Positions 687 to 62,100 of a stretch of DNA of 64,000 nt are shown here, in pieces. Position 1 is the first letter of the stretch; each line of letters begins with the position of its first letter. The DNA comes from Tubulanus polymorphus. Lineage: Eukaryota > Nemertea > Palaeonemertea > Tubulaniformes > Tubulanidae. Under the pieces are notes generated by a model. That model worked only from the letters and a program-made list of their open reading frames with translations. It had not been told where the DNA came from and made no database searches. Where the stretch lies: positions 777,501 through 841,500 of the forward strand of contig NC_134029.1 of NCBI RefSeq assembly GCF_964204645.1, read 5' to 3'. A program made the translations under genes and the position numbers.

Positions 687-1393
687 TCAATTTGTTCTTG
701 TCTTCTTCTTCTTTTTCCTTCGAAAGAAACAGCACCTGTGAAAAAAAGGAAAGTAATGCAAAGATGTGGCGCGACAGCAAAATAAACAATGAAGGCTTTG
801 AAATCCATTAAAACACGGGCTGGCTGACTGGCCGGCTGGCTGGTAGCCAGCGGACAGCGTAGGGGTACAGCAATTAACAAGCGATTATAGTAAAAACAGC
901 CAGTTTTATAGACCAATTCTAACTTGACAGAACCCCACGAGTCTTATGATTAGTAAATTGAGTTTAAAGTTAAAACTGGATTCAGTTTCAAAGCCGTAGT
1001 TCGAGTTTCTCTCTAGTTTCAATGTTTTAACCGTGTAGTTATCCGGGAGAACTGAGGAACTGGGTCCTGGTCTATACAACCGGACTTCGGCTTCAGTTTC
1101 ATAGTTGTAAGTTAGATTCACAGTCAAAATTCGTCTTTTAGTGTCAAATCTAACTTACAACGAGCAACCGAGTCCCGCTTTATAAACTGGTTACTGACTC
1201 CAGGGAGTTACTGGTATCAAACCCAGTCTATAAAACCAGCCCCAACATCACAGGCTTTTAAGAAAATTTCAAAATGATATGATGGAGTTAGAATAACAGT
1301 AAAAACAACCCGACAAGCAGCAAAAAACAATCAACATATTTCATCATATGACTAATCGAAAGAGGCTAATTTCAGACGGACAGACAGACAGAC

Positions 1394-1445
<52 letters not shown>

Positions 1446-4400
1446 CACGCCTAAAGCAAAAAAAAAAAAACAATCAACATTAGTACGAAGGGAATGAACC
1501 ATTAAACGAATAAATCTGAATTCCATAAACGAAAATCATGAATTTCGAATCAAAATAACGATAATTCAAGGTCAGACGACTCACGTTGCCACGAGACACT
1601 TTGAGCATCTGAAATATTCCACATTTATGATAGACACAAAATTAATGTACGTAAAATAGAAATACAGCCGAAAAACAAGTTTCTGGTTCAAACCGTTTAC
1701 ACTAATGAAAGGCAAACTGATAATATCATAATACTGTTATTACGAACTATGTTCAACATTCAGTTGAACATAGTTTAACAGTATAGAAACCCAGCCGGCC
1801 GGCCAGCCCAGTGAAACCTTTCAAAATACACAACACTAATGGCTCGATGATTAGATACACAGTCACCCCCCCCCCCTTCTGGGCATCTGTATTCCTGAGC
1901 CCCCAAAGCCTCCCACAAGGCACCTGTAATGTGGACCCCCAGAGGCTCACGTCCATTAGGCCTCTAACTACTACTAAAATAAAGATTCTTCATGAAATAC
2001 AACATATTATCGATTATGTGTACAACAAATTTACCAACAAATAACAACATAAATCAATCAACTCCCCTCACCCTCACCCCTCACCCCTCACCCCTCACCC
2101 TCTAAATAATCAGTTTTAATGAATCAGTAATTATGAGCGTAGATGAATCCTTTCAACGATTCGATGGGAAAGCATGATTTAAAAGTGGGTGGTGAATGGA
2201 AAGGGGTTTAAGCGAGGGTTATAACCAACTACCCCCCCCCCCCCCCAAAATAAAACCAACACCTAAATAGTTTTACGTGACAACACCAGGAGGCAGCAGT
2301 GTACGCTCTAGTCCAGGGCCGATAAACTACCGTGGATAAAGGTTTCAGAAATAAAGCAATTGAAACTAATACTGGACTAGAGTTAGCGTAAGAGAGGAAG
2401 CCAGGGGGAGGGGCTGAGAAGTGTCAATCACTCAATATTCACTACGCGATGAACTAATATTCAAAGTATCAATTTAGAGATAAAAAATATGAAATTATTG
2501 ACAAATGATTGATGAATTTGTAGCGAATTTCGGAAAAATCTCAGCCTGAAAATTTGAAGTAGGGAAGGGAGAGAGGAGAAAGAGGGGCGTGTCACTAACA
2601 TAGAGCCAATACGTATTGATGTATATAAAACAGAGTTTTCAACATACTTAGTGTCATCGACTACATCAACATCAGCTGGAGTAGTGAAGGGCACTGTAGA
2701 CCGGCCGGTAGGGTCATCGGGTGCAAGTTCACCGTTCGTAGAACTGACGACCTACAGAGAATACAATCAATTAGAATCATAGAATAGAAATAGATTCATA
2801 CTTCACGTCATCGACAACTTCAACTTCGGTTTTAGTAGTGATCGGAGCGCTGGAGCGCGTCGTAGGTTCTTCTACTCCGACTCCGACATCTCCGGAGCTT
2901 ACAACCTGTACACAATATATACAACTATATTACAGTACATTTACAATAAACCCCCGGACCCAGGATCCTTTAACCGTCTCAACCCTGTTACCCTCGACAT
3001 AACCCTGACAGTCTGTTCGACAATCTTGAGTTAGAAGCCACCGTCAAAACCCCCAAACTACCAGAACCCATTTAACCTACGGAAATATTACAAACTCAAA
3101 CACATGAACTTTCTATACGGTTAAACTCCCTACTGAAACCAACCTCAAAATATCAACTACCGGGTCTCGGCTAAATAAAATCCCAAGCATGAAGCTTTAT
3201 AAGACTCTAGTAGCATCTGCAGTTTGAACCAATGGAGTTTATTACAGTGTTACAGAGTTATTGACTAATAAACAGTAGTGTTATCAATAGAGTTTATCAA
3301 AGAATGATGTTAACAGTAGTTCTACAGTAGTCCCACTACAGTAGTCCTACTACAGTAGAGGTAGTCCTACTCAGTAGTTCCACTACAGTAGTCCTACTAC
3401 AGTAGAGGTAGTCCTACTCAGTAGTTCCACTACAGTAGTCCTACTACAGTAGAGGTAGTCCTACTTACGTAGTTCCACTACAGTAGAGGTAGTCCTACTT
3501 ACGTAGTTCCACTACAGTAGTCCTACTTACGTAGTTCCACTACAGTAGTCCTACTACAGTAGAGGTAGTCCTACTACAGTAGTTCCACTACAGTAGTCCT
3601 ACTTACGTAGTTCCACTACAGTAGTTCCACTACAGTAGTCCTACTTACGTAGTTCCACTACAGTAGTCCTACTACAGTAGTTCCACTACAGTAGTCCTAC
3701 TTACGTAGTTCCACTACAGTAGTCCTACTACAGTAGAGGTAGTCCTACTTACGTAGTTCCACTACAGTAGAGGTAGTCCTACTTACGTAGTTCCACTACA
3801 GTAGAGGTAGTCCTACTTACGTAGTTCCACTACAGTAGTCCTACTTACGTAGTTCCACTACAGTAGTCCTACTACAGTAGAGGTAGTCCTACTTACGTAG
3901 TTCCACTATAGTAGAGGTAGTCCTACTTACGTAGTTCCACTACAGTAGAGGTAGTCCTACTTACGTAGTTCCACTACAATAGTCCTACTTACTTAGTTCC
4001 ACTACAGTAGTCCTACTACAGTAGTTCCACTACAGTAATCCTACTTACGTAGTTCCACTACAGTAGTCCTACTACAGTACCAGTGTAGTCCTACTACAGT
4101 ACCGTTGTAGTCCTACTGCAGAACTAACAACTCTAAAATCAGTTTAATTTCGGGGTTAAAGAGAATTAGTTTTTTTGTAAGAGAGGAAGAACTTAAATAA
4201 TCATTGCGGAATGTTTGTCATTTTTAGAAGTTTAAAGCCGGCTCATGCACAGCGCAGGCTTAGTAAACATTCTAATAATTTCTCAAGTGTTTATCGGGGT
4301 AACACAGTGGTGAAGCTATAGTTCACATCTCAAACAGACAATGAACTTTGTTATATATCGTCGCCGTTTGTTGTAGTTGTTGTTTTATTAATATTGCGAG

Positions 4401-7400
4401 GTGAATTTAGAATTGTGCAAGAAAACGACCGTTCTTTTTACCTGTCCGTAATATTTATTATTGAGAAGATTATCTTGAGAATTGACGGGCTACGAACGAA
4501 AGCAGAGCAAAATCAAACACGAGTTTCGTGATATATACAATCGAGAAATCTGTGAGGGATGAGTTTTTACACACCTGTACAGAACCACCGTGTCTGTCGG
4601 TTAATGGATTTAACTGATTGCCTCCTCCACCTCCTCTCTGAGGTTCGGCCCAAGCTGTACCTCTCGCGGCTGGATTGTTCGCGTTCATCTACAAATTAAA
4701 CAATTCATCGATCGTTATAAATTACTTCATCCCACGTTCTTACAGATATTTCCCCGACGCTTGATAAAAACGTCCCTGATTAGAATATAAGATATATCCT
4801 CAGTGGGGCGGTTCTTTTTTTAAGTGGTTCCTCGTTAAAAATTCTCTGACTATTTTCTGATTTCCAAGATAAGTCATAATTTAATGTTAAAGAATGTTCA
4901 AGTAAAGAGTCATAATTCCCTGATCTTAAAGAAACCTGTTTATAAATAGCCCTTAAATATCACAGAATTGGACAAGGCCGATTACTCATATTTCTCTTTA
5001 GAGCAATGAAATAAAATGTCGAATGATAAAAATTTGCATAAAGCCACAGTTAAGAGATAAATACAACAGGTGATATTCAAACAACTGGGTCATGATTATT
5101 TCACTAAGTGGAAATTTAAAAACTATTCATTGTGTCATAAAGAGGCGTAAAGTGGCAAACCTTTCCGGGATGACGAACTCGATTTCTATCTGTGTTTGGT
5201 GACAATGCGTCAGGGGCTGCGACGGATCCCGGAGTAGACTGCAATAAAATTCAAATATACCATTATAAGAGAGTGAGTGAGGGGTATGAGTGGAGTGAGC
5301 GAGGGGTATGAGTGGAATGAGCGAGGGGTATGAGTGGAGTGAGCGAGGGTGGGGTGAGGGGTCCACCGTTCAAAATAAACCCCTGGAATAACAAAAGAAA
5401 TTCCAGAAATATCGACCACCAAAATATTACACAGTTATCTTGATAAGGGACTGAATAACTGAACCATGAACGGGGCCGAATAATTCTAATATCGGTCGAT
5501 GAGTCTAAAAACACTGTTTTTATCTCTTTATCTTCAGCCGTTAAAATTCATGACATTTTAATGATTATTTTCAACACAATAGAATCAGATATCATATTAT
5601 TGTCTTGTAAGGTTATATTTATCACTGATATCAAAATGAAATGACGTGTTTTTGAGTACATTAAATAAATAGTCGATCTACATTTCTGTGTACAGGGTGT
5701 TTTTAAGCTGTAGGTAAAGAAATATCATTCATCGTCATATAATAATCTCTGATAAATTCACGTCTAATAATAAATATAACAAGTACAACATCTACGAAAC
5801 ACCAGTACATACTGCTGGAAGCTATTAGCACCTGTTTACAGAACTGCAGGGGGCTGGCGAGTGAGGGGCTAATATACGTACCATTTGACGACCGGTCCAA
5901 TCAAATTCCCAATCAGAATCCCAGCCTTTCTTCTCCATCAGATCTTGGAATAACTTCCGAAGATAGTCGTAATCTGGCGTTTCGAAAAAATCTAAACTTC
6001 GGACATATTTGAGATATCTCGCGAGTTCTTCTGTAATAATATCAATTCAATGATAGTTGTGCAGTTCTAATTCATCAAGGGATAGTGAGTCAAGGGGTTT
6101 GTAGTACTAGTATGTACATGGTTAAACTCACTTTACGAGTTTTTTCTGAGGGTCGGACGTCCTATGGCTTGTACAGGTTTTATCAACGTTAAAAGGTTTT
6201 TTATGATTTGTGTGTCAAAACCAATCAGAACATATTTGTTTACATCAGGTGACCAGCTTTAGACCAATGAGAAGCTAGGGTTTCGAGCCATGTGCTAACC
6301 CTAGGTTGGATCTATTTGTAAATATCAGGTGACCAGCTCTTGACCAATCAGAAGCTAGGGTTAGGGTTATTGTTATGCAGATTCATTGACCAGCTATAGA
6401 CTCATTTGCATAAAGTGCCAGCTCTAGACCAATGACAGGTTAGGGTCAGGGTCACAGTGATTGAGTGACCAGCTATAGTCTCATTCATAATACTCTCTGC
6501 CATACACAACTACTATGATAATTGTTTACAATATTAAAATCCCTCAGTTTACCACCCAGTTTAATGGGTGTGAAGTGTGAAACCATCTCTGGCAGGTGAC
6601 TCTAGTAAGAGATTATTTACCTGGAAATCCTTCACATAATACTTCTATTGGTGTCGCTCTTTTGGTATCACCGATCTTTTGATAACGTTCTTTAAGGTTA
6701 TCAGCTTTTAAGCCTTGCCATGGTAAACTGCCCCGCAGGAAATACATAAACATGTGACCTAACGCTTCCAAGTCGTCTCGGCGACTTTGTTCTGAAATCA
6801 ATTATAACACACATATATTACATATACTCATGCGATTTCATGCTGAAGACTCAGTTCCACAGTTCTGGATCCAGTTCCTCAGTTCTGAACCCAGTTCAAC
6901 AGTTCTGGACTCAGTTCCACAGTTCTGGATCCAGTTCCTCAGTTCTGAACCCAGTTCAACAGTTCTGAACCCAGTTCAACAGTTCTGAACCCAGTTCAAC
7001 AGTTCTACCCCAGTTCCAAAGTTCTGAACCCAGTTCAACAGTTCTACCCCAGTTCCAAAGTTCTGAACCCAGTTCAACAGTTCTGGACTCAGTTCAACAG
7101 TTCTACCCCAGTTCCAAAGTTCTGAACCCAGTTCAACAGTTCTGGACTCAGTTCAACAGTTCTACCCCAGTTCCACAGTTCTACCCCAGTTCCACAATTC
7201 TGAACCCAGTTCAACAGTTCTGAACCCAGTTCAACAGTTCTACCCCAGTTCCACAGTTCTACCCCAGTTCCACAGTTCTACCCCAGTTTCACAGTTCTGA
7301 ACCCAGTTCAACAGTTCTGGACTCAGTTCCACAGTTCTGAACCCAGTTCCACAGTTCTACCCCAGTTCCACAGTTCTGAACCCAGTTCAACAGTTCTGGA

Positions 7401-10400
7401 CTCAGTTCCACAGTTCTACCCCAGTTCCACAGTTCTACCCCAGTTCCACAGTTCTACCCCAGTTTCACAGTTCTGAACCCAGTTCAACAGTTCTGGACTC
7501 AGTTCCACAGTTCTGAACCCAGTTCCACAGTTCTACCCCAGTTCCACAGTTCTGAACCCAGTTCAACAGTTCTGGACTCAGTTCCACAGTTCTACCCCAG
7601 TTCCACAGTTCTGAACCCAGTTCAAGATTATTTTGATTCATGATTAAGTATATGAGATTTAGATTGATTGATGCATGACGCAAGTCTTTATACAATCAGT
7701 AGAGTGTGAGAGGGGAACTAGATTCCACCGGTAGAACGAACTGTAAGATGATAACCAGGACCTGTGGTTTATATCAGAAATATGTGAGACATCTCATAAG
7801 AATGAGCAGTAGTGCCTACTGAGTGATTAGTGCATCTGACACTGAATAAAGGCTCAGACTGCGATGATGAAATGAAGGTTTAGACTTTGATGAATTGAAT
7901 CTGGTTCAGATGTTTGATTAGTTTCAGTTTGTCTACAGTAAATATCACATACTGGACTCAGTGCACCATCATAGAGACACACTAGTAACCACCAGGCACG
8001 TATGACATTTCAACCATCTATCTATCTATCTGACATCCCAGGTGCAACGATGACTTCACTAACTATTCATATCGAACTTCTCAGAAGGTTAATACCACGG
8101 TCAGTCTCTGAGCGGCTGCTGCAGATAATTCACATGCAGCGGTGCGCGAAGGATGGACCGTCAATGAGACAGGGTTTTTACTTTCGACGACCTCTGATAA
8201 TCAACGTAATGTTGAGCGTTATAAACACAGGGCGAGGTCAACATTCTCAACATCGAGACAATTGAACAATGATCGAAATTAAGGGTGATACGTACCTTTA
8301 CCTAAATGTGTATTGATACTCATATATCGTGCTGTACCAGTTAAACTCTTATGTTCCCGGTACGGTATATGTTTACTAGTCTCTGGATCTATATATTCTT
8401 TCGCCAGACCGAAATCGATTATATGAATTATATGTTGTTTTTTATTAGATTGCCGGCCTATTAAAAAGTTCTCTGGTTTTACATCTCGGTATATAAGATG
8501 TTTGGAATGCACATATTCCATACGAGTTAACTGAAAAATATAATCATAGAAAACAACATCAGAGAGGACAGGTTTACAGTAGAACCAACTTCATTTAGGA
8601 GTGATATCTGAGTTGGATGATACAGTAGACTCCGCTCAAGTCTGATCTTTTGACTTGAGAGTGATATCTGAGTTGGTCGGTATAGTAGACTCCGCTCAAG
8701 TCTGATCTTTTGACTTGAGAGTGATATCTGAGTTGGATGATACAGTAGACTCCGCTCAAGTCTGATCTTTTGACTTGAGAGTGATATCTGAGTTGGATGG
8801 TACAGTAGACTCCGCTCAAGTCTGATCTTTTGACTTGAGAGTGATATCTGAGTTGGATGATACAGTAGACTCCGCTCAAGTCTGATCTTTTGACTTGAAA
8901 GTGATATCTGAGTTAGATGGTACAGTAAACTCAGCTCAAGTCTGATCTTTTGACTTGAGAGCGATATCTGAGTTGGATGATACAGTAGACTCCGCTCAAG
9001 TCTGATCTTTTGACTTGAGAGTGATATCTGAGTTGGATGATACAGTAGACTCCACTCAAGTCTGATCTTTTGACTTGAGAGTGATATCTGAGTTGGATGG
9101 TACAGTAGACTCCGCTCAAGTCTGATCTTTTGACTTGAGAGTGATATCTGAGTTGGATGATACAGTAGACTCCGCTCAAGTCAGATCTATTGACTTGAGA
9201 GTGATATCTGAGTTGGATGGTACAGTAGACTCCGCTCAAGTCGGATCTTTTGACTTGAGAGCGATATCTGAGTTGGATGGTACAGTAGACTCCGCTCGAG
9301 TCTGATCTTTTGACTTGAGAGCGATATCTGAGTTGGATGGTACAGTAGACTCCGCTCGAGTCTGATCTATAGACTTGAGAGTGATATCTGAGTTGGATGG
9401 TACAGTAGACTCCGCTCAAGTCGGATCTTTTGACTTGAGAGCGATATCTGAGTTGGATGGTACAGTAGACTCCGCTCGAGTCTGATCTATAGACTTGAGA
9501 GTGATATCTGAGTTGGATGGTACAGTAGACTCCGCTCAAGTCTGATCTTTTGACTTGAGAGTGATATCTGAGTTGGATGATACAGTAGACTCCGCTCAAG
9601 TCAGATCTATTGACTTGAGAGTGATATCTGAGTTGGATGGTACAGTAGACTCCGCTCAAGTCGGATCTTTTGACTTGAGAGTGATATCTGAGTTGGATGA
9701 TACAGTAGACTCCGCTCGAGTCTGATCTTTTGACTTGAGAGTGATATCTGAGTTGGATGGTACAGTAGACTCCGCTCGAGTCTGATCTTTTGACTTGAGA
9801 GTGATATCTGAGTTGGATGGTACAGTAGACTCCGCTCAAGTCTGATCTTTTGACTTGAGAGTGATATCCGAGTTGGATGATATAGTAGACTCCGCTCAAG
9901 TCAGATCTTTTGATATGAGAGTGATATCTGAGTTTGATGATACAGTAGACTCCGCTCGAGTCAGATCTTTTGACTTGAGAGTGATATCTGAGTTGGATGA
10001 TACAGTAGACTCCGCTCGAGTCAGATCTTTTGACTTGAGAGTGATATCTGAGTTGGATGGTACAGTAGACTCCGCTCAAGTCAGATCTTTTGACTTGAGA
10101 GTGATATCTGAGTTGGATGGTACAGTAGACTCCGCTCAAGTCAGATCTTTTGACTTGAGAGTGATATCTGAGTTTGATGGTGCAGTAGACTCCGCTCGAG
10201 TCTGATCTTTTGACTTGAGAGTGATATCTGAGTTTGATGATACAGTAGACTCCGCTCAAGTCAGATCTTTTGACTTGAGAGTGATATCTGAGTTGGATGG
10301 TACAGTAGACTCCGCTCAAGTCAGATCTAGAGTTGTATCTCCAACATGAAAATGGTTGAAGGATATCGACACAGTGTGAGTTGATCCGATCACGGAACCA

Positions 10401-13400
10401 CTGCTCATAAATAAACATAACGTGTGTTGTGTTGACTGAGAAAGAAAGTTGTTTATGAAGATTAATGATTTCGCGTGACAAACACAGAGTTTCTTTTTCA
10501 ATTAACACAAATCTTTTCCGACTAGAGTACTGGATTACATACAGCAGGTAGAGTGTCGAGCACTAGCCTCAATTTTACCCGGGTATCCAGGTAGACACTG
10601 CCACAGAAATAAGTCGGTCAAGAGGTTCATTGTATGAAGAGCCTTTAGAAAAACCAAATTCACAACACTTATTAATCTAAATGTAATATAAATATGAAAT
10701 GTTGGGTATAAAGAGCTGATGACACCAGATGTGTACGATCTGATCTATCTCTACCAGCTCAACCTACTCAGTTTCAATAACACACATGTGCACTGTGTAG
10801 GCATATATGTTCGTTCGTTCGTTGTTTGTTGATATTCCAAGAATTCAATCACTTTTTTATTTCATGGAATCTCATCATAAGAGACAGCGTTACAGTACCT
10901 GATACACTGTCAGTACCTGACACAGTACCTGATATACTGTCAGTGCCTGAAACAGTACCTGATATACCGTCAGTACCTGAAACAGTACCTGATATACTGT
11001 CAGTACCTGAAACAGTACCTGATATACTGTCAGTACCTGACATACTGTCAGTACCTGATATACTGTCAGTACCTGAAACAGTACCTGATATACTGTCAGT
11101 ACCTGAAACAGTACCTGATATACTGTCACTACCTGACAAAGTACCTGATATACTGTCAGTACCTGAAACAGTACCTGATATACTTTCAGTACCTGAAACA
11201 GTACCTGATATACTGTCAGTACCTGACACAGTACCTGACACAGTACCTGATATCTGGAACAGAACAACACATGCACGTATAAATAAATACTTACTAATTG
11301 CACAGCAATCATTAACACGGTTTTCAATGAAAACTTTCTATCGCAGAGATCAAATAAATCCTCTAAACTAGGACCGAGCAGTTCTATCACTAATGCATTG
11401 TATTTCCCACATGGTCCGAAATAGAAAACTTGTGGAACTCCTTCTGAAAAATATAAATTATCATTCACAATCATCGCTAACTTAATCACTTACATGATTT
11501 GATCGAGCTTTTATAAAGTAGGGTTATTCACTAAAGGGGTTAATCCATACCCCTCATCACCGGGGCTAGTACCCCCTCCTCACCAGGGCTCTTCCTGCAC
11601 CCCTCCTCACTGGAGCTAGTACCCCCTCCTCACCAGCGCTCCTCACCGGGGCTAGTTCCCCCTCCTCACCAGGGCTCTTCCTGCACCCCTCCTCACCGGG
11701 GCTAGTACCCCTCCTCACCAGGGATCCTCCCACACCCCTATTATGTATGGTATGTCATCAGTAAGATCTGTGATATTGTTGTAGTTGATATTTAGTGATG
11801 ACACTGAATTCAGTGTCATCCATCAATGTTACAGATATTGATCATAGTGAGAGACACTGCACAACTAGACTGACTGCACCTTATACTTATTACTATACCG
11901 AGCCAGTCAATATACCATCTAATACCCAGCCAGTCAATATACCATCTTATACTCGGCCAGTCAATATACCATCTTATACCCAGCCAGTCAATATACCATC
12001 TTATACTCGGCCAGTCAATATACCATCTTATACTCGGCCAGTCAATATACCATCTTATACCCAGCCAGTCAATATACCATCTTATACCCAGCCAGTCAAT
12101 ATACCATCTTATACCCAGCCAGTCAATATACCATCTTATACTCGGCCAGTCAATATACCATCTTATACCCAGCCAGTCAATATACCATCTTATACCCAGC
12201 CAGTCAATATACCATCTTATACCCAGCCAGTCAATATAACATCTTATACCCAGCCAGTCAATATACCATCTTATACTCGGCCAGTCAATATACCATCTTA
12301 TACCCAGCCAGTCAATATACCATCTTATACTCGGAGAGTCAATATACCATCTTATACTCGGCCAGTCAATATACCATCTTATACCCAGCCACTCAATATA
12401 CCATCTTATACCCAGCCAGTCAATATACCATCTTATACTCGGCCAGTCAATATACCATCTTATACCCAGCCACTCAATATACCATCTTATACCCAGCCAG
12501 TCAATATACCATCTTATACTCGGAGAGTCAATATACCATCTTATACTCGGCCAGTCAATATACCATCTTATACCCAGCCACTCAATATACCATCTTATAC
12601 CCAGCCAGTCAATATACCATCTTATACTCGGCCAGTCAATATACCATCTTATACCCAGCCACTCAATATACCATCTTATACCCAGCCAGTCAATATACCA
12701 TCTTATACTCGGCCAGTCATATACGGATTATCTTGAATATCATCAGGAACCCATGTTCTACTGACTAAATGGATTATGTTGCTAATGGTAACAGACTTAA
12801 ACCGACTGACAACAAAACAACCGCCGCCAAATATAGCAATCGTCTGTCCTTCGATCGTGATTTATTGTCAAGGACAGCAGAGAAAACAACATCAATAGTG
12901 AGACAGTTAAGGTTTGGTTTCTACATCGTTGAACTGATTCCAAGTCAAAGTCCTTTGAACTCAATATCAACCATGTTCAAGTTGATATTCCCAAGAGTAG
13001 ATTATAAGAATCTTATTTTTAACTCGAAATATTTGACATTTTGAAACGTGCGTGTAAAAAGCAACTGAATACATAGTAGAAAATCAGGCCTAAAGTCACC
13101 AGCCTACAGTCGCCAGCCTACGGTCGCCAGCCTACGGTCGCCAGCCTACGGTCGCCAGCCTACGGTCACCAGCCTACGGTCACCAGCCTACGGTCACCAG
13201 CCTACGGTCACCAGCCTAAAGTCACCAGCCTAAAGTCACCAGCCTACGGTCGCCAGCCTACGGTCGCCAGCCTACAGTCACCAGCCTACGGTCACCAGCC
13301 TACGGTCACCAGCCTACGGTCGCCAGCATACGGTCGCCAGCATACGGTCGCCAGCCTACGGTCGCCAGCCTACGGTCGCCAGCCTACGGTCGCCAGCCTA

Positions 13401-16202
13401 CGGTCGCCAGCCTACAGTCGCCAGCCTACAGTCACCAGCCTACAGTCACCAGCCTACAGTCACCAGCCTACAGTCACCAGCCTACAGTCACCAGCCATTG
13501 TGAGAACTATTTATAATAAAATCAATCATATTTAAAACTACATCAAACGTAAAATAAAGCTTCAGTTTTTATAAATACATTGATTTCTGTGAGATCTAAA
13601 CACAGTATTAGTTACACACGTCGATGTGACTGACATTCAAGTCCACAATGATGGAACTCAGCAGGATTAGTCCTTGGTTTAGTGATACCCGGACCGGTTA
13701 AAGAACACAATCCCGTCCAACCGCTATCGGTTTAGATTTTACTGAAACACTTGAAATGAACTGATTTCAACTGTAGAGTTAAACTATAGGAAACACCTAT
13801 GTACGGTATTTTTAAGACTATTTTTTTGGAAAGATTGATGATGATGATATTTTTTTTAAGGTAAACAACTGAATTCATGGGAAAAGAGAATGTCACTGAT
13901 TTGTGTAATAGTGAGTCATTAGAGAAGGATGGAGGAACAACCTACGCAACACCCTCCCTCCCTCCCTCCCTCTCTCCTCTCACATTCCAAAAAAACAGCA
14001 GGATGTTATTCATTTCTCCTCACTTTGTGGCTACTCCATATAACAAGCATTCTTAAAAACCCCTCACTTACTCACTGACTGACTACCTCACTGACTGACT
14101 GAATACCTCACTGTCTGACTGACTACCTCACTGACTGACTGACTGACTACCTCACTGACTGACTGAATACCTCACTGTCTGACTGACTACCTCACTGACT
14201 GACTGACTGACTACCTCACTGACTGACTGACTGACTACCTCACTGACTGACTGACTACCTCACTAACTGAATACCTCACTGACTGACTGACTACCTCACT
14301 AACTGACTGACTGACTACCTCACTGACTGACTGACTACCTCACTAACTGAATACCTCACTGACTGACTGACTACCTCACTAACTGACTGACTTACTACCT
14401 CACTGACTGACTGACTACCTCACTTACTGACTGACTGAGGGTCTCATTGACTGGAACTAGAGAACTAAGATAATGACTAGACGACTTTAGAATTTAAAAC
14501 AACTAGAACTAGAATAATGACTAGACGACTTTAGGATAACGACTAGGAGTAGGTTTAAGCGCAACACATTGTAAATATTGATCAGGAAAATAGCAGCAAC
14601 GAGCAAACGAATAAACGAACGAATGTTGTGTTATTCGGAGTAGAGCTTAGTAACAAAACATCAACACACGATGTGTTATATAAATACCACTAAAATCAAT
14701 GAAATATCTCATTTATTTTCAAACAGTTTCGAGATTTTGACTCTTAATCCAATTATAAATCATGATATTTCATCAACAATTACGATGGATTTTGATTCTA
14801 TTTACAAAGTGAGGCACATAACAGAATTGAGTTCATTCCTCAGTTGTGAGTTCAACTCTGAATCAAGATTAGTCGTTTTCCATGGTTTCAACTGAAGTCC
14901 ACTCAGCAGGTCACACCCCTGACCACTGAAAGGTGTCGATGAAGGTCGTGAAATAATAAAGTCTACTGACTGCTTACCTCTTAATTCACCGGCCTGTCCT
15001 AACTGTTTATAAAATCGATATTCCAGATGTAATTGCGGCGCTCTTGATTTCATCGGTTCCAATTTAATCGCAACGTGTTCATTGTTATATAAATTTTTAC
15101 CTGAAAACAAACGAATATTTGAAATTTAGGACAAAATTTACATTCACTTACATCATACCCTACCCTCCTCACAGGTATAGTGCTGGGGGATCCATTAATA
15201 CTCTGAGTCCGTGTGACCCTACCCTCCTCACAGGTATAGTGCTGGGGGATCAATTAATACTCTGAGTCCGTGTGACCCTACCCTCCTCACAGGTATAGTG
15301 CTGGGGGATCCATTAATACTCTGAGTCCGTGTGACCCTACCCTCCTCACAGGTATAGTGCTGGGGGATCCATCAATACTCTGAGTCCGTGTGACCCTACC
15401 CTCCTCACAGGTATAGTGCTGGGGGATCCATTAATACTCTGAGTCCATGTGACCCTACCCTCCTCACAGGTATAGTGCTGGGGGATCCATCAATACTCTG
15501 AGTCCGTGTGACCCTACCCTCCTCACAGGTATAGTGCTGGGGGATCCATCAATACTCTGAGTCCGTGTGACCCTACCCTCCTCACAGGTATAGTGCTGGG
15601 GGATCCATTAATACTCTGAGTCCGTGTGACCCTACCCTCCTCACAGGTATAGTGCTGGGGGATCCATTAATACTCTGAGTCCGTGTGACCCTACCCTCCT
15701 CACAGGTATAATGCTGGGGGATCCATTAATACTCTGAGTCCGTGTGACCCTAAGCTCCATTAATCTGAGTCCGTGTAATGAAGGATTAGATTTCCACACA
15801 AGGAATGAAATGTTTCCTTGAGCTAAGTGTAGTTTATTCAACGATTCGACTTAATCCTAATAGTCATATTCAGGAATTGGAATAGACTACTGATTCTTTC
15901 TTTAGGTGGTAGTTAATGAGGGCTGGGAGGGTCAGCTTGTAATGTAGGGTCTGAAGCCAAGGGTAATAAAGGATTACAACCCAAACTAAACTCTTACCTA
16001 ATCTCAATTCTCCGAAGTTTCCGCAGCCAATTTTCTTGCCGACTCTAAAGTTCGGGCCAACCATTAATATGCCCGTGCTGCCCGGGTTATTAGGGCGGCC
16101 GGCGTGACCGCTGTGCATCCTCTGATTACCACCACTAGCGGCCCGTGAGGTCCGGCGTGTGTCCTCTGAGGTACCACCTCGTTCACGCTTTTGTTCACTC
16201 AT
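687..16202 (-). CDS. CSNK1G: Casein kinase 1 gamma (membrane-anchored Ser/Thr kinase)
   Basis: Coding exons, 5' to 3' on the minus strand: 16202-15998, 15100-14978, 11443-11295, 8530-8296, 6791-6621, 6030-5882, 4688-4575, then 2905-2802 or 2751-2648, and 735-687. All junctions keep frame and give 432 aa, close to vertebrate CK1 gamma. The kinase domain starts near residue 52 (Gly-rich loop GCGNFGE). VAIK Lys is about K81, the catalytic loop YRDVKPEN has D175, and the DFG motif has D198. The CK1 signature SINTHLG is present. The C-terminus ends [16 protein letters not shown]. Family knowledge: this Cys-Cys plus basic tail is palmitoylated and anchors CK1 gamma to the plasma membrane, where it phosphorylates LRP5/6 in Wnt signalling. 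The start is the first ATG of an exon ending at GELRLG. Introns are filled with tandem repeats, listed separately. Confidence 0.96.
1375..1443. repeat. (GACA)n microsatellite in the last CSNK1G intron
   Basis: A near-perfect GACA/CAGA tetranucleotide run, followed by a poly-A stretch. Confidence 0.95.
2648..2751 (-). other. CSNK1G: CSNK1G alternative C-terminal exon 8b (104 nt)
   Basis: The exon is bounded by ctgtag and a GTATGT donor. It encodes [18 protein letters not shown] and ends DVDVVDDTK. This is the version closer to the vertebrate CK1 gamma tail. It has the same length and phase as exon 8a and lies 50 nt from it. Confidence 0.88.
2802..2905 (-). other. CSNK1G: CSNK1G alternative C-terminal exon 8a (104 nt)
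   Basis: The exon is bounded by tacag and a GTATGA donor. It encodes [16 protein letters not shown] and then an acidic VEVVDDVK end. It starts in phase 0 and ends in phase 2, exactly like exon 8b just downstream. Either one joins correctly to the last exon (K-CC-FF). Confidence 0.85.
3297..4115. repeat. Compound minisatellite, CSNK1G intron 7
   Basis: Interleaved units such as TAGTTCCACTACAGTAG, TCCTACTTACG and TCCTACTACAGTAGAGG fill about 820 bp. CTACTACAGTAG is nearly palindromic, so the array can fold on itself. Confidence 0.9.
5270..5356. repeat. 22-bp minisatellite, CSNK1G intron 6
   Basis: About four copies of a unit built on GAGGGGTATGAGTGGAGTGA. Confidence 0.85.
6160..6490. repeat. 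Degenerate repeats around GACCAGCT..AGACCAAT, CSNK1G intron 5
   Basis: Four to five diverged copies of a segment of roughly 50-90 bp contain GTGACCAGCT, AGACCAAT and AGCTAGGGTT. A related piece lies near 47650, so the unit also occurs elsewhere in the window. Confidence 0.6.
6846..7625. repeat. 20-bp class minisatellite, CSNK1G intron 4
   Basis: About 38 copies of units such as CCCAGTTCCACAGTTCTGAA, CAGTTCAACAGTTCTGGACT and CAGTTCTACC. The units match the end of a dispersed fold-back repeat seen elsewhere in the window (CCCAGTTCCACAGTTGTGAG). Confidence 0.92.
8597..10326. repeat. 60-bp minisatellite, CSNK1G intron 3
   Basis: About 29 highly similar 60-bp units run head to tail, containing GATATCTGAGTTGGATGGTA and CAGTAGACTCCGCTCAAGTC. 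Because 60 is divisible by three, long repetitive open frames appear on both strands. The array lies inside an intron. Confidence 0.97.
10900..11258. repeat. 30-bp minisatellite, CSNK1G intron 3
   Basis: About 12 copies of a unit containing GTACCTGATATACTGTCA and GTACCTGAAACA. It ends about 40 bp from the exon 3 donor. Confidence 0.93.
11555..11740. repeat. CCCTCCTCACC-type repeats, CSNK1G intron 2
   Basis: About five imperfect copies alternate CCTCCTCACCGGGGCTAGTA and CTCCTCACCAGGGCTCTTCC. Confidence 0.8.
11897..12718. repeat. 27-bp minisatellite, CSNK1G intron 2
   Basis: About 30 copies of a 27-bp unit containing CAGTCAATATACCATCTTAT. The unit length gives a 9-residue periodic open frame on the plus strand (PVNIPSYT), which I do not regard as a gene. 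Confidence 0.96.
13088..13496. repeat. 14-bp minisatellite, CSNK1G intron 2
   Basis: About 29 copies of CAGCCTACGGTCAC and its variants with CG or AA exchanges. Confidence 0.95.
14064..14440. repeat. GACT/ACCTCACT compound repeat, CSNK1G intron 2
   Basis: Runs of CTGACTGACTGA are separated by CTACCTCA. Higher-order units are duplicated. Confidence 0.93.
15160..15750. repeat. 59-bp minisatellite, CSNK1G intron 1
   Basis: About ten near-identical units with CTCCTCACAGGTATAGTGCT, GGGGGATCCATTAATACTCT and GAGTCCGTGTGACCCTAC. The spacing of successive CTCCTCACAGG motifs is 59 bp. Confidence 0.95.
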
Positions 16203-51512: not shown

Positions 51513-52460
51513 CTACCAGTTTTGAAACGGTAGCTGCAGCTGCAGCGGCTGAGTCGTCGTCGTGTAATACGTCGTATTCGCGGACGAAACGATACGCGAA
51601 TGATGCGACGAGAACGCAGCTGTTAACGCAGGTGCGGCTGCTGCAGGTGCCAGTTGTGGGATACAACTGGAGGTACCGGTCATCGCAGCGTATCTATTAT
51701 ATCCAGTTTGTTGGTAAGATCTATAAGGATGGTATGAACTGGGTCGGTAAGTCGGCGGACAGCTCATTTGAACGTAGCCGACGTTGTATTTCTGCGCGCT
51801 ATTTACCGGTATCTCGGGTATATCCAGATCTCTGGTTCCTCGTCGGGCGCGGCGCCGGGCGTTTCGACGACGGAAATCACCGCGAGCGAAATCATCGACG
51901 CAAGCCTGATGAATCGCCCAATAATTCCCTTTACCGTTCTCAGCTCGACCGCACTTAACGAAACATTCGTTCAGGGAGAGATTATGACGTACGCTATTTC
52001 TCCAAGCTTTGTTCGAATTATTGTAATACGCGAAGTTCGTCATGATGTATTCGTAGATATCGTTGAGTACCATGCGTCTATCCGGACGACTGAGTATCGC
52101 CATAGATATCAACGCGATGTAAGAATGTCCCGGTTTATCCTTATTCCTGGTTTGTATCGACGCGGCTTGTTGTTCCAGAGCGAAGATCGTTTCGGCGACA
52201 TCGTCAGAACCGGTCGGCGACGGAGCACTCCTCGGCGAGTCACAGGAAGACGCGATACTCTTACTAGGCGTATCTAAACTACCGTTTAAAGATAACGGTG
52301 ATGGTGTTCGGCGCTGATGTTGATTTTCTTCGAAACCAAACGAATCAGAAATCGGCGATAGACTTCTCAAAGGCGGTAGGTCGATCATCTTACAGCTGGT
52401 TTGATGGTGATTGTGCGGAGTCGTCAAGAACTCGATGCTGAATGGTAGACTGTTGGACAT
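51513..52460 (-). CDS. FOXQ2: Forkhead transcription factor FoxQ2
   Basis: A single uninterrupted exon encodes 315 aa from ATG 52460. The frame is open 88 codons further upstream, but that part is unlike Fox proteins, and the chosen start puts an EH1-type Groucho-binding motif (LPFSIEFLTT) at residues 5-14, typical of N-terminal-EH1 FoxQ2 proteins. The forkhead domain is about residues 108-205: KPGHSYIALISMAILSRPDR, WRNSVRHNLSLNECFVKCGR, NGKGNYWAIHQACVDDFARG, then a basic wing-2 (DFRRRNARRRARR). The RRR wing and the ANxDDF-like segment are FoxQ2 features. The C-terminus is Tyr/Ala/Thr-rich. Family knowledge: FoxQ2 patterns the anterior (apical) pole of bilaterian embryos. An AATAAA on the minus strand (51326-51321) lies about 190 nt past the stop. 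Confidence 0.95.
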   Translation of the reverse strand: MSNSLPFSIEFLTTPHNHHQTSCKMIDLPPLRSLSPISDSFGFEENQHQRRTPSPLSLNGSLDTPSKSIASSCDSPRSAPSPTGSDDVAETIFALEQQAASIQTRNKDKPGHSYIALISMAILSRPDRRMVLNDIYEYIMTNFAYYNNSNKAWRNSVRHNLSLNECFVKCGRAENGKGNYWAIHQACVDDFARGDFRRRNARRRARRGTRDLDIPEIPVNSAQKYNVGYVQMSCPPTYRPSSYHPYRSYQQTGYNRYAAMTGTSSCIPQLAPAAAAPALTAAFSSHHSRIVSSANTTYYTTTTQPLQLQLPFQNW

Positions 52461-54611
52461 CTTCTCTAGTTTTGAGCGAGAAGAATCTGGTAAACGGTTT
52501 ACAGAAAACTGATGACCAGGGCTGGAGTTCGTATGGTATTTATACCGAATGCGCCGGGAATTCGCGGACAAACCCGTTAGAAACAAACTTACAAACAACC
52601 GCGTCACAGCGAACAATGCTTGACGTTTGTTAATCACACTTGCCAGCAATGTTGGTCTCACTTGTATCCACTGCTGGCGAGCGATTTGATAAATATTTAC
52701 GAAAATACTGGGCGAAATTTTCAAACAAAATAGAAAACATTATCTCAAACACAGGGCGAAATAAATATGAAATATCTGAAGTCAATTCCACGTGAAACAA
52801 TATGAAAACATGAAAATCGGGTTAGCATGAGGCAGCTGAAATTAATTCAAGTTTATAATTTCTAAAAAGGACAAATTATTCTATATATATATATTACATT
52901 TTCTGAACCCCGATTGTATCTCTTTTCAAAATTTTGAATGAATTGAATATCTTTATGAAAAAAATATCATTTTCAATCAATTTGTTTCAAGTAAATCAAA
53001 GTCATTTTACATTCATGAGTTCAATCTGTTGTTGTATAGTCCAGTACATTTTTCTCGTGTGCGTTTTTGTGAATTTGTATCAAAAAGCATTCATTTTTTC
53101 ATTTTCTACATTTTGACAATAATAATATAATTAATACTATAATAAATGAATATTATTATCATTTCGATCAGAAACACGAATTTAATACGTCAACAATCAT
53201 TCAATTAGTCCCTTCACTAATTTCAAGTAATTGATAGAAATTTACGTGAAATTATTAAGAGTGTAATTATTTGATCAGTGAATTAATCAATAAACGAAGG
53301 CACTTCTAATTATTACTCTTAAATATGTTGTTTGTAGTAATTGCAGTAATCTGACGCGTGTTTCATGAAATATTTGGCGCAAATATTCGGGTGACAATTA
53401 ACATTAAATGTCAAATACGTCAACGGATGCAGTTTGTCATTAAGATAATACACACTGATTTTAAGATCAACTAATTTATTTCAACAATTTTGAATTCTGT
53501 CTAATATTCCATCTGTCATAGTTGTGGTTTGTTTGTGACGGGTGTCGTAGGATACCGTGTCCCTTAGTTTCACCACGAGTAGCACGTTTTTCACACCTCC
53601 GCTGACTATTTCAGTTCAATAGTAATATCGCAACTACGACATCACTTTACCTTCCAACTGACCTCAATTACAGGTTTTTGTTTTGTTTCGACGATTTTTT
53701 ATGAACCGATGGAGTGATTCAAAAGAGAAATCGCAAATCTTCGTCCGGAGAATGAAATATGATGGAATAAGAAAAAAAATACGCAATCATTTTATCAACA
53801 GACAAATTCCTCATTAATTTGAAACGACCACTATAGGTGTTAATCTTGCACGATCCTCTTTGACCTTAAAAAAGATTCAGATTTAATTTGGATTACCATG
53901 CGACAACCAAGCCGGAACAGATTCGATAGATCATAAGATGATTCCCACTTCATAGAGATTTAAACATTAAAAATGAAATATATCTACGTGTCATGAATTA
54001 AAATCAAAAGTTTATGACACGAGGTTACGGTCTTCTTATTGAAAATGTACTCAATCAACTTGTATTCCTTGTTTATTTTCCCGCTTTTTAGTTTTTTCTT
54101 CACAATTAACGATGGTCTCTTGCATTTTTATTCCTTTTATTTTTAATGAAACGGGTATACTCTATAACTTTCTATTCTATTAGATTTGATAGCTACAGGA
54201 TATTTTTTTATATACGTACGCCTAACGCCCCTGACAATTGACAGATAACTACGTAAGTCACGAATACAGGATGGATTTGGACTTGTTTGCGCATATTTTA
54301 CATGTATCGTATTTCTATATAGATTTCTATACGTCCCATTGCACTTCTCGATTAGAACGATACCGAGTTTCCATATACTATCATCACTTATCCGTATTTC
54401 AATAGCGAACAAGATTTAGTTATTGGCTGTTTTAGTGATACGGCGCGTGTATGTCGGCAAAACCAATTATTCAGACGTACTAGAAATATAGAGCTTTAAT
54501 AGCGATATGCGTTAACACTAAAATCAGGGTCTAGAGAGTAAATAATCGCGTATCCGCGGGCACCGGAAGTGACGCATTCATCGGTCGTCTGGTGTTCGCG
54601 GATGAGTGGAG

Positions 54612-55087: not shown

Positions 55088-58000
55088 ATGGAAATGTTGC
55101 ATCACAAACCGTACGTCGATCTTTTGAAAATGGAGAAAAAATTGGATAGACGAATAACGATAAATGTGGGCGGTCGGAGACATGAAACCTGGGCGAGCAC
55201 ATTAGAAAGGATCCCGGGAACCAGGCTGGCTTTATTAGCGCATCTGATGGAAGCTGATGAAAGTTACGATTACGATAGAAAAGAATTTTTCTTCGACAGA
55301 AATCCGAACGTTTTCGCCGTGATTTTACACTATTATCGCTCAGAAGAATTACACGTTGATACGAATCTGTGCGGGAATGTCGTCAAAGGGGTAAGAACAG
55401 TAAAGAACAGTAAGAACAGTAAGAACAGTGAGAGCAGTAAGATAAGTAATAGTTGTAGGAACAATGAGAGCAGTAAAAACAGTAAGAGAATAGTAAGATT
55501 AGTAGGAGCGTTAAGAGTATAGTTAGAACAGTAAATGGTTAGCAAAGACAATTAGAGCAGTAAGATCAATAAGAATGGTGAGACTAGTAAGATTAGTAAG
55601 ATCAGGTAGAGAAAGAAGAGTAGTGAGAGCAGTAAGAATATTAGATGATCGCTTTATATCGTGTTAGAGCCTCTATTGATATGTATTATGACGTGTATTA
55701 CGTCATTACGCAGTTTCCAATACGTAATTTTCTCCATTAAGAAAAAAACGAAGAAATTACCGTTTTAGATTCCATGCATTTTATTCATTATATCGAAATG
55801 TAATATGCATAAAGATATGTTATTACGTGTTTTGATTTGATATCAGGTTAATGTGGCTTCTCCACGACTTCAATAATATCGGATAGTTCTTATATCATAT
55901 AATGATGATAATAATCTATTCGTTTATATTGCGCAGATCTATGAACTGAATCACCGCGCTGTACACCTTAAAACAGTAGATACCTCATACGAATTCCATT
56001 CGAATTGAAAATGTATATTAGTCATTCAAAACAAGTTGGATAAAAAAAGGGAAAGCTCCAAAAGTGGGCACACCGTACTCGTGATGAAATTGGGATGTTT
56101 TTCAAACAAATTCTAGGGTTTTTAAAGCATTTTGCCCGTATCGCCCAGTGAGGCGCTTCTTTATGATACCAATCACATTTACATATACTACGTGCTAATA
56201 AATTCAGTTCCCCGAAGTGCTGTTTTCATCGTGTATAAAACCTACATGAGATACAGCGATAAAACGTATTCCTCTCAGTTCGCGTTATTATTACGCAACT
56301 AAAAATCTACCGTAAAGATCATGAATCGGGCGGGAGAGGAACCGGAGAAAATTCTATTTCCGGATTTCGTGACGAATGGAAGAAAATATGAGAATTCAGT
56401 TTGCACTGGTCGACTGGTCGCAGCAGCGCAGTTTGTCGAGGTTTGTGAAAAACCCACGCGTTTCATCAATACGTTTGCGCTTGAAATCCTCGTGATAAAA
56501 CAATTTCGATTCGACTCAATTGTGATTTATGACTAACAAATATTTGTGTAGTCGCTACAACTGAAATAATACTTTATTTTACTCGATCACACAATTCTAG
56601 TCGAAGTCGACAGCGCGTAAATCATTTTTATTCTGTAATGATTTCAATTTCATGAATCTACAGAATAATATTTGAAATTTATCAACGTTATACATATTGC
56701 TGGCATAAATATATCTCGTACCTGCTTAGGGTTAATTCTGAATTGCCAGCCTCACCGAGAAGCCGATAGCCGATTAAACCAATCATTCAAGTTTAACTCT
56801 TTCGTTAAATTGGGACCAGTAAAATTTAGTTCAAATAGTCGCAGGCCCGTTTCTGATATAGGAAGGGGAACTTATTTCGGACACAAGCACCGACCCGATG
56901 AAAAAGAAATTCATCTAGTCTCTTGCTTCGAATGGAAAGCAGCGATATTTACGGGCAAACTATAATTTCTCAAGATTACGAATTAATCCGCGAATTGAAC
57001 AAGTCGTAATGAATAATAAAGAAGAAGACATTGATCCATCTTTGAGATGACAAGACAATTATCACACGAGCTCTCAGCGAGCTGCGTGTCCCAGGTAGTC
57101 CCGGATCCATAGTTACTCATCGAGTTGCTACGCGTTACTAAACATCGAAATCGTTTCAAACCGTATGAAATATGGATTGTATTATTATTGGATTCCCTGT
57201 TATTGTCAAGAATAGATTCTTCACCAGTCACTCTCTCAAACTCTATACAATACTATTCAATTGACTGATCATCGATTCTCATTTATTATTCAAAAGATGT
57301 TACCTCGTTGTCTTCCGCAAAACAAAACGTCATTTGTTTTTTTTACGGCCGTATAATGAATAATTGAACGTGTTATTGTGCGCTTTTCAATAGGAAATCA
57401 CGATTGAATTGTACTCATGTACGTTCCTAGAAATATCAATTAACCTTTGAATTTTGAAATGATATAAAACCCTACGAGCGCATAATGAAACTATACATCA
57501 AAAATATATATAAAACTGCGCATTCTTTCGGCTTCTTTACTTATAACGATATCATCAGATATGAATCAATCATGAGTTGTCATCTTACTTAGAAAGCGAA
57601 ATACATCGAAACGTGGTCGTTTTTCGTCATTTGGACAAGTCATCTCTATTATTCAGTGCCAATCTGTTGTATTTACGAAATGTTAGTCATCATTTGGATA
57701 AGTCGTCAACGTAATGATCGTTACAGCTATGTAGCTGGATGTGTTAAGCGAGTTTGACTGTATCAGGCCCTCCCATTATCCCACTCCCTGGATCAAAATA
57801 GATCTGTTTTACGGAACCGATTCGTTGTATAATGATTAATGAGCCTCTTAGATCCGGTCGTTAACAGTCTCAACTCGGCAATGTTATTCTTCGACCTGAA
57901 AAACGAAGAAAAAATCCACTCATTGCTTCGATGATTCTTTTATTTAGTTATTACTGCGTCGTCAGATTGGGTTCAATTCTCGCCGGTAAGACCGTCCGTC

Positions 58001-59197: not shown

Positions 59198-62100
59198 AGA
59201 GAGAGAAGGGAGAGGAGAAGGGAGAGCGAGAGAGAGGGGGAGAGGGGGAGAAGATAAAGAGAGGGAGGAGAGAGAGAGGGAGAGGGGGAGAAGATAGAGA
59301 GAGGGAGGAGAGAGAGGGAGAAGAGAAAGAGAGAGGAGAGAGAGGGGAGAGGAGAGAGGGAAGAGAGGGGATTAGATGGGAGAAAGAGAGTTAGGGGAGA
59401 GACTGAGGAGAGAGGAAAGCGGTATTAACATTTTTACCAACATGAATAATCGCTCTTTCAATAATCTGCAGACGGCGAGTTGGGGGATATCGATTCGTGT
59501 TGCCACGAGTAACCGCATCGTAAACTAAACTTTAATGGTATCCATTCTATTGTGTAGTTTACATCGAAATGAATTGTAAAACGAGAAAACACGTCTAATT
59601 AGAGTCGAACGCCGTAAACAGGTCTGGTTTTGCGTGGGTCGTAAAATGCGTTAAGGTGGCTAAAAGCCGGGACAATATAGGAAATAATTCAAGCGAAACA
59701 TTACACTCGGTTATTAGTTTCTAGTTTTATGGTTCGGCGGGTGTCTATTCGATGTATTACAAACACCGCAGTGAATTCACTGCCAAATTCAAAAAAATAA
59801 CGGTTAACGGAGACGCAAGAATCGCGCTTGGTGAATACTTTAAATAAAATGTCCGGCATACACTACACTACAAGCAGTTCTTTTCTCTAAGATTATAAGT
59901 ACGGTTACTCCTTTGTGTTCCGCTGAGTAGGTCTATATACTTTGTTAGATTTCTCATTCTCATTTTCAAGTTTGTGTGCAACTGTCCAATTATAACTATT
60001 ATTACACGTATTATAGATTTAACTGTAGAATCAAAATCCACGACCACCATTTTAAATAAAAAGTAATATCCCTAAATAACGTAATGAATGAAAGTTCGAT
60101 ATTCTTTACAAGGCGTGTTCGTTGAAAAAGATGTTGAATGATTTTTATACAGACTCGCTGGCGGTGATACAGGTCCCGGGAAACTGATTATTTATTTCCT
60201 TCGCGTCGCAGTCAGTTGTGTAGGCAAAATATCCGCTATCGGAAACTGAAACAATAGACGTAATAGAAACGGCTTCAGCGATATTAATCACATGAGACAA
60301 TAATCTGGTGTATTCAAGTAATGTCTTCGATGCATCCTGATACGTGACTTTCTCAACGCAACAGTCCAGTATTAATAACAACTATTTTTACTAATCAGTT
60401 TTTGATTGATTTTCGCTGCAACTAATTTTCATGTCGTATTTCTATTATCATTATTACATTTACGTCAGTTTTCTTTGTTTCGGAATCGTTTTCTGCGCGC
60501 GTGAAGTCACGTTGAATCACAATCTCGCATCATCAGCCAGTAGACACTGTATCTAATAATTTATCTTATTCTATTCTATTAACACATTTCAAATTACGAA
60601 GCGAAATTGGTATGAACTATGAAATTTGTTATGAAATTATTCTCATTTCGCCGACGTGATAAAGTTAACCTCACCCACTCAGAGGGAATGGCCAACTCAG
60701 ACTTTACTCGGACAAAAATGAAATAATTATTTTGTGACTTCCAAACGTATTTTCTGATCCTTAACCCGGGCTTCGCTTAGATCGACTATAGATTACAGAC
60801 AATTTATAGGTTAATCGTGAACTAATACTATTGAACTTTTTCACATTTAGGAGTTGTTATTTTGGGGCCTCGAAGAGTCGGATATCGAGCCGTGTTGCTG
60901 GGGAGCTTACAGCAGATTCACCGATCACAAGTCAACCCTGGCGGCCATTGATGAGACATTCGGGGCACATTTAAACGACGCCTGGGAGGAAGAACCGTCG
61001 AAATGGTTACGAACCAGACGGCGTATTTGGGCAGTACTCGAAGATCCATCAACTGGTCGATTAGCCAAGGTAAAAACTAGTGTTTGATTAGTTTTAATGG
61101 AGTCTTGTGTTTCCTCGTTGTTTGCCCAGAGTCAACAGCATACAGTCAGTTGACAGTCATCACAATCGTATTCAGAAATGAGAACAATATTCACAAGTCA
61201 ATCAACCCGAGTATTATATAAAGTAGTATCCACTCGACGAATTTCATATTCGGATCCTCGGCGAATAAGTCGTTATTGTTTTAGTATCGCTACCTTTTTT
61301 TCTGATTTGATGTTATATTCATTATGTTCCCTTAAAGAACCACCTCACACCTGTCAGTAGTGAAACAAGGCGATGGCATGCGGGGCTCAGTTTCACAGTT
61401 ATAGTTTCGATTTAGTGTAAGACCACCTTACTTATACAGCAGATGTAACAACTTGAAACCAGTCTTTTTATTTATTTTTAACACCTTTAGGTATCAAGAC
61501 CGTGGAACTTATCGCGGTTTTTTTTTCGATTTTCGTAGTGTAACAGTTCAATCATTGTCTGTGTTGTTTTTTTTCAGGCCTATGTCGTCGTGTCGATGTT
61601 TTTTGTATTGATGTCGATTGTGATATTCGTTCTGGAAACGCATTGTATGTTCCGTCGAGTGGTGATTCCGCTGAACACCACTCTAACCGCCTGCGAATAT
61701 AAAGATCTCAACTGGAAAGAACGCGAAGGAGTTTACAGAACCGAAGTTAAAGATTACATGGAGTTTTTAGATTACGTCTGTTTCGGTTATTTCGTGTTCG
61801 AGTTGATTCTCAGATTTATATTCGTACCGACGTTCAGGGAGATGGTTACTAAAGTTCACAATATAATCGACTTGATTTGCATCGTTCCGCATTTCGTGTC
61901 CGTTTTACTGAAGATAATCCAATCGGAAAATCAGTGGACGCCGAGCTTGCTCAAAGTAATCATGCTATCACGGGTTATACGCTTGCTGAGAATATTTCGA
62001 CTGATGAAACATTACATCGCCTTCAAAATACTCGTCTACACGATCAAAGTCAGCACGAAAGAACTGATGTTGATAATCGTTCTTCTGTTCACCGGAGTTC

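Follow-up and report, generated by a model that had tools for sequence, protein, structure and literature searches.

The CSNK1G gene of Tubulanus polymorphus probably carries a pair of homologous, mutually exclusive exons, here called A and B, whose alternative use would be enforced by steric hindrance together with the reading frame and would exchange the linker in front of a constant membrane anchor. In the scenario that we favour, A and B would stem from a single exon that encoded the residues immediately ahead of the palmitoylation anchor and was duplicated in tandem long ago. U1 bound at the donor of A and U2 bound at the branch point of B could not be accommodated 30 nt apart, which would bar the joining of A to B; each transcript would take one copy, and after a splicing error the frame would remove the anchor. 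All positions refer to the whole stretch of DNA analysed, 64,000 nt in length and referred to below as the window (Table 1).

Table 1. Positions of CSNK1G, its exon pair and other features in the window
Feature	Position	Strand	Remarks
CSNK1G	ATG 16202 to stop 687	-	Spliced product of 458 residues with either A or B
CSNK1G exons 1-7 (kinase domain and first part of the tail)	16202-15998, 15100-14978, 11443-11295, 8530-8296, 6791-6621, 6030-5882, 5238-5161	-	
Exon 8, upstream splice partner of A and B	4575..4688	-	Ends ...DRHGGSVQ
Candidate in-frame cassette between exon 8 and A (uncertain)	4442..4489	-	48 nt, open throughout and flanked by AG and GT
Exon A, the upstream copy, which looks derived	2802..2905	-	104 nt; phase 0 in, phase 2 out; AG/GT flanks
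Intervening intron	2752..2801	-	50 nt; GT-AG; GTATGAAT...CTCTGTAG
Exon B, downstream copy, conserved	2648..2751	-	104 nt; phase 0 in, phase 2 out; AG/GT flanks
Last coding exon, with Cys pair and polybasic anchor	687..735	-	Read in frame only if A or B, but not both, precedes it
Minisatellite arrays	about 3360-4120, 6850-7620, 8590-10320, 10890-11260, 11880-12740, 13090-13500, 14060-14460, 15170-15760		Placed by eye
Forkhead-domain open frame	51513-52739	-	
BTB_2 open frame	55088-55522	+	
Ion-channel open frame	61539-62921	+	

The gene product was assigned by comparison with the PDB. Its best match was human CK1 gamma-3 (E = 1e-182), and the top 7 sequences among the best 60 of 1329 matches were CK1 gamma-1, -2 and -3 and Gilgamesh; none of these 60 matches covered the tail segment encoded by A or B. 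In the PDB alignment, four extra residues were seen at the junction of exons 2 and 3 (14978/11443), where the product reads GQAGELREG and human CK1 gamma-3 reads GSG----DG. The predicted anchor contains two C-terminal cysteines and a basic stretch, whereas three C-terminal cysteines are reported in passages on the human (PMC9254030) and fly (PMC4900676) proteins. When the genome was searched with the peptide of exon 4, the exon itself was returned with 100% identity; the other matches among the best 10 of 45 candidates had 68%, 65% and, in one case, 65% plus 61% in two neighbouring pieces, and the rest were weaker. We take these to be different CK1-type genes and CSNK1G to be the single gene at the CK1 gamma level in this genome; for mammals, three CK1 gamma genes are mentioned (PMC4900676).

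CSNK1G has a divergent neighbour, a VPS33-like gene on the plus strand that starts at 17539, with about 1.3 kb between the two start codons. The assembled product of this neighbour matched the Pfam family Sec1 (1.1e-65) and human VPS33A (7.4e-57), and VPS33A was also its best PDB match. By eye, five out of six introns above 800 nt in CSNK1G contain long minisatellite arrays, with repeat units that differ between arrays, and the 3' UTR of CSNK1G (about 649-402, minus strand) contains tandem copies of a unit of roughly 56 nt (CCACACTACCTGCC.GATAGC...GACAGGATAGTGCGAT). Farther along the window, the BTB_2 and ion-channel open frames probably belong to one voltage-gated potassium channel gene.

The initial annotation had described two adjoining exons of 104 nt that start in phase 0 and end in phase 2, and their coordinates were found exactly as claimed; both exons are flanked by AG and GT. 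It had also described the encoded tails as related. Indeed, 16 of the 34 whole codons specify the same residue in A and B, and the ungapped BLOSUM62 score of the pair was 77, far beyond the scores obtained with 20,000 shuffles of B (-15.1 ± 12.7 [mean ± standard deviation], maximum of 41). A third copy was sought in all six frames of the window (64 kb) and not found, the highest scores elsewhere being 28 with A and 26 with B. A 351-nt DNA query spanning the pair matched the 268-Mb genome once, at the window itself, in a type of search that can miss common sequence. The 50 nt flanking the exons upstream and downstream are weakly alike between A and B (shuffle P = 0.029 and 0.018, respectively), splice signals included.

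Eight splice forms were built from exon 8, the candidate cassette, A, B, the last exon and the retained 50-nt intron. The anchor was kept in four of the eight, namely those that take up A or B but not both, with the cassette in or out, and it was lost only on double inclusion, double skipping or retention of the 50-nt intron. Joining A to B shifted the frame and met a stop, as had been claimed; this stop lies in B, 13 nt upstream of the last junction. When both exons were skipped, with or without the cassette, the result was 72 frameshifted residues and a stop in the last exon at 517, and retention of the 50-nt intron gave a stop 129 nt before the last junction. Under the 50-nt rule for nonsense-mediated decay, the retained-intron form is the only clear decay target. 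The form with A and B lies outside this rule, so that double inclusion, if it occurs, would be expected to yield a kinase lacking the anchor and not a transcript that is clearly degraded. Past the donor of B, the frame stays open for 61 codons (2647-2461, minus strand), ending in ...ISKLIL and a stop, and would encode an anchorless tail if that intron were retained; downstream of this read-through frame, ATTAAA is found at 2120. The candidate cassette lies 85 nt past exon 8 and has a donor of 7.8 bits but an acceptor of -4.4 bits; its open frame is not significant by itself, and with it included, the tail carrying B scored 39.9 instead of 52.1 bits in Pfam.

The two copies have been apart for a long time. 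Codon positions 1, 2 and 3 are identical in 25/34, 24/34 and 11/34 cases, and the method of NG86 gave a dN of 0.42 and a dS of 1.63 for A versus B. Synonymous sites are near saturation while the protein is kept, from which it follows that the duplication is old and that A was coding for much of its history. The exons were also fitted to a pairwise codon model with 12 omega values, a kappa set to 2 and F3x4 frequencies taken from A and B. The log likelihood was -232.2 at an omega of 0.05, the best value tried, as compared with -234.2 at 0.25, -236.7 at 0.5 and -240.9 at 1; an omega of 1.0 was worse than 0.05 by a 2ΔlnL of 17.5. When A was simulated as evolving neutrally from B over the same nucleotide distance, the observed similarity was reached in 0.03% of 20,000 runs, and in 0.015% without a stop; the absence of a stop from A is uninformative alone, as 52% of the neutral runs had none. 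Under a more lenient null, in which A has been neutral since the duplication, B is perfectly conserved and the clocks are equal, the position counts gave a P of ~0.02. These values argue for moderate to strong past constraint on A.

Exon B appears to be the copy that kept the conserved first half, and A looks like the derived one, because B fits the Pfam profile CK1gamma_C (PF12605) better: the tail scored 52.1 bits with B and 27.9 bits with A, with a cut-off of 21.2 bits. The profile ends within the exon and so judges chiefly the first half. With a 50-residue piece, a Pfam match was obtained with B and none was obtained with A. In a comparison with a human CK1 gamma-3 tail, which we treat as a lead only, B matched 13/15 residues in the first half and 9/18 in the second, and A matched 6/15 and 12/18; this hints that A may have replaced its first half and kept its second about as well as B. 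Relatives of the tail were not confirmed in bacterial/archaeal and viral sequence collections, and vertebrate tail peptides were not found printed in the literature. The PF12605 profile had no match in the genome, but it detected 0 of 14 controls as well, which makes this result uninformative.

Splice signals were scored with a small weight matrix from 18 introns, 7 of CSNK1G and 11 of the VPS33-like gene; the latter were placed from the open reading frame and the scores of their splice sites, with one donor ambiguous (intron of 645 or 655 nt). Both donors of the pair start with GTATG, and their scores resemble those of the reference donors, with 7.7 bits for A and 7.0 bits for B (the 18 leave-one-out donors range from -1.8 to 10.6 bits). 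On these grounds, U12/U2 incompatibility was set aside as an explanation. The acceptors are intact and weak: A has 5.8 bits, with 17 of the 18 references higher, and B has 6.7 bits, with 16 of 18 higher. Weak acceptors are frequent in regulated exons. Little sign of a local RNA structure that could act as the switch was seen, since the 361-nt region folds little better than its shuffles (z = -1.30, 13 of 100 shuffles being as stable, for local folding alone); the Dscam class of mutually exclusive exons, by comparison, depends on competing base pairing of one docking site with selector copies next to each exon.

The best branch point predicted from the consensus in the 50-nt intron is CTAAT. 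Its branch A, at position 31 of the intron, is 30 nt away from the donor of exon A and 19 nt before the 3' end; TTGAT at position 35 is a second consensus candidate. Passages of PMC5740500 and PMC7969005 give a steric limit of ~50 nt between donor and branch point, and any branch point within a 50-nt intron necessarily falls below it. From this spacing and the consensus branch point, A would be sterically prevented from joining to B. The placed introns measure 75 to 3534 nt, all 18 of the two genes, a small sample, being at least 75 nt long, versus 50 nt between A and B. For the VPS33-like introns of 75 and 78 nt (after HLFLIDR and GIGNAAK), alternatives of 42 and 45 nt were tried and rejected; they scored 166.9 instead of 196.4 bits against human VPS33A because they insert residues that are absent from VPS33A.

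Short introns were also sought more widely in 184 kb by open-frame continuity, with GT-AG compared with four decoy dinucleotide pairs under five settings. Under setting 1, GT-AG was found 29 times at 60 to 199 nt (decoys, 20, 13, 9 and 10) and 3 times at 25 to 59 nt (decoys, 2, 4, 3 and 5). Under settings 2 to 5, the short class had GT-AG counts of 1, 2, 0 and 0 versus decoy counts of 0/2/2/2, 0/1/0/2, 0/0/0/0 and 0/1/0/0, so that GT-AG (2) was slightly above the decoys (0, 1, 0 and 2) under one of the five settings. In this small sample, no clear excess of GT-AG was seen below 60 nt, and the 184-kb survey thus gave no clear sign, on indirect evidence, that introns of only 50 nt are used in this genome. 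The view that the intron between A and B is probably too short to be spliced is supported by the predicted branch point, the lengths of the placed introns and, indirectly, the survey. Of the proposal that frame and spacing together enforce an either/or choice, the frame logic and the unusual shortness of the intron for this genome stood, while we infer that both exons are used.

Could the gene make the B form alone? Exon A would then be a relic, a formerly functional duplicate that is now rarely or never spliced, which we consider unlikely. An acceptor weaker than 17 of 18 references and a first half that departs from the conserved Pfam profile would suit a relic, and a recent loss would be invisible to a pairwise test. 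However, A has no stop and no indel, its splice sites are intact, and the codon-position bias is strong, with third positions far less often identical than first and second ones. Moreover, a neutral A next to a perfectly conserved B is expected to give an omega of ~0.5, where the log likelihood lies 4.5 units under the best; the version of this argument that is based on position counts is weaker (P ~0.02). Still harder to credit, to the point of being nearly negligible, is the reading that the resemblance is due to chance or to an artefact of the assembly and that a real second exon does not exist. Nothing was found in its favour. Chance was ruled out by the shuffle test and the window-wide scan, the similarity being beyond all 20,000 shuffles and every other place in the window, and the synonymous divergence of ~1.6 and the one DNA match in the genome speak against a recent duplication in the assembly.

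There is also a small chance that the pair is not strictly exclusive and that regulated double inclusion or skipping yields an anchorless kinase with a frameshifted tail, which would make the pair a switch of membrane attachment and not only a linker swap. The stop of the form with A and B, 13 nt before the last junction, and that of the double-skip form, in the last exon, are in line with this, since neither falls under the 50-nt decay rule. On the other hand, none of the 18 placed introns is as short as the 50-nt one, and the constraint on A is explained without such a switch. In a related and similarly improbable version, the number of copies included would be what counts: one copy would give an anchored kinase with one of two linkers, and zero or two copies would give an anchorless kinase with a frameshifted tail from transcripts that escape the 50-nt decay rule. 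If this were true, a single splicing decision would set both the type of linker and the ratio of anchored to soluble kinase. CK1 gamma acts differently once released from membranes.

If A and B are mutually exclusive, as we favour, the two isoforms share the kinase, the Cys pair and the polybasic stretch and differ in a 35-residue linker that is acidic and rich in Ser/Thr. The initial annotation had suggested that the swap could tune membrane targeting or binding; for targeting, this is weakly based, as the Cys pair and the polybasic stretch belong to the constitutive last exon and do not differ between the isoforms, so that the swap would change the linker next to the anchor and leave the anchor itself untouched. 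CK1 gamma is described as the membrane-anchored CK1, with roles in Wnt and Hedgehog signalling (passages cited here, including PMC4900676). Inhibitory C-terminal autophosphorylation is reported for CK1 gamma 1-3 (PMC4032983), the fly protein Gish is described as acting on Smoothened only with C-terminal membrane attachment (PMC4900676), and the punctate localisation of human CK1G3 is stated to depend on such attachment (PMC9254030). The swap may tune partner binding or the inhibitory autophosphorylation of the tail. Because kinase, Cys pair and polybasic stretch are common to both isoforms, and given the reported roles of the tail, we would regard a change in autophosphorylation or in the choice of partners as more likely than a change in targeting. 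Should both forms be made, they would provide a natural minimal-difference test of the 35 residues before a lipid anchor, with kinase and anchor held constant, and the pair would be a highly compact example of steric enforcement, the intron between the exons being just 50 nt long.

In having homologous exons with an intervening branch point below the limit of ~50 nt, the predicted pair resembles alpha-tropomyosin (Tpm1) and exons 4a/4b of OGDH, for which mapped donor-to-branch-point distances of 41 nt (rat Tpm1 intron 2) and 25 to 41 nt (human OGDH) are given in PMC7969005. In these two genes, the branch points were mapped and lie unusually far from the 3' splice site; in CSNK1G, by contrast, the branch point is a predicted one at an ordinary 19 nt from the end, and the whole intron has only 50 nt. 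Frame incompatibility and a short donor-to-branch-point distance are both recognised routes of enforcement: among human mutually exclusive clusters, 377 (60%) have frame-incompatible lengths and 57 (9%) have a distance of less than 50 nt, according to the passages of PMC5740500 that report these counts. The same source places 87% of the human regions in secondary structure elements, whereas the CSNK1G segment belongs to a tail outside the best 60 of 1329 PDB matches.

Variation of the C-terminal region is known within the kinase family itself. As far as the cited passages go, Drosophila Gish isoform F, of the isoforms I and F, has no palmitoylation motif (PMC6768662), in human CSNK1G3 a C-terminal exon is subject to skipping without loss of frame (PMC3158048), and an insertion of 33 residues is found close to the tail in CK1 gamma-3 (PMC9157009). 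In Gish I/F and human CSNK1G3, however, a segment is gained or lost, whereas in the nemertean CSNK1G two homologous exons would be exchanged. An exchange of this kind in CSNK1G, CK1 gamma or gilgamesh was not found in the portions of the open-access literature searched. The term "CSNK1" is absent from the main texts of two human exon surveys and of the Kassiopeia database paper, and "casein kinase" is absent from that of PMC5740500 as well. Thus, isoform variety in the CK1 gamma tail is known, and mutually exclusive duplicated exons are known from other genes, but in CSNK1G such a pair looks new.
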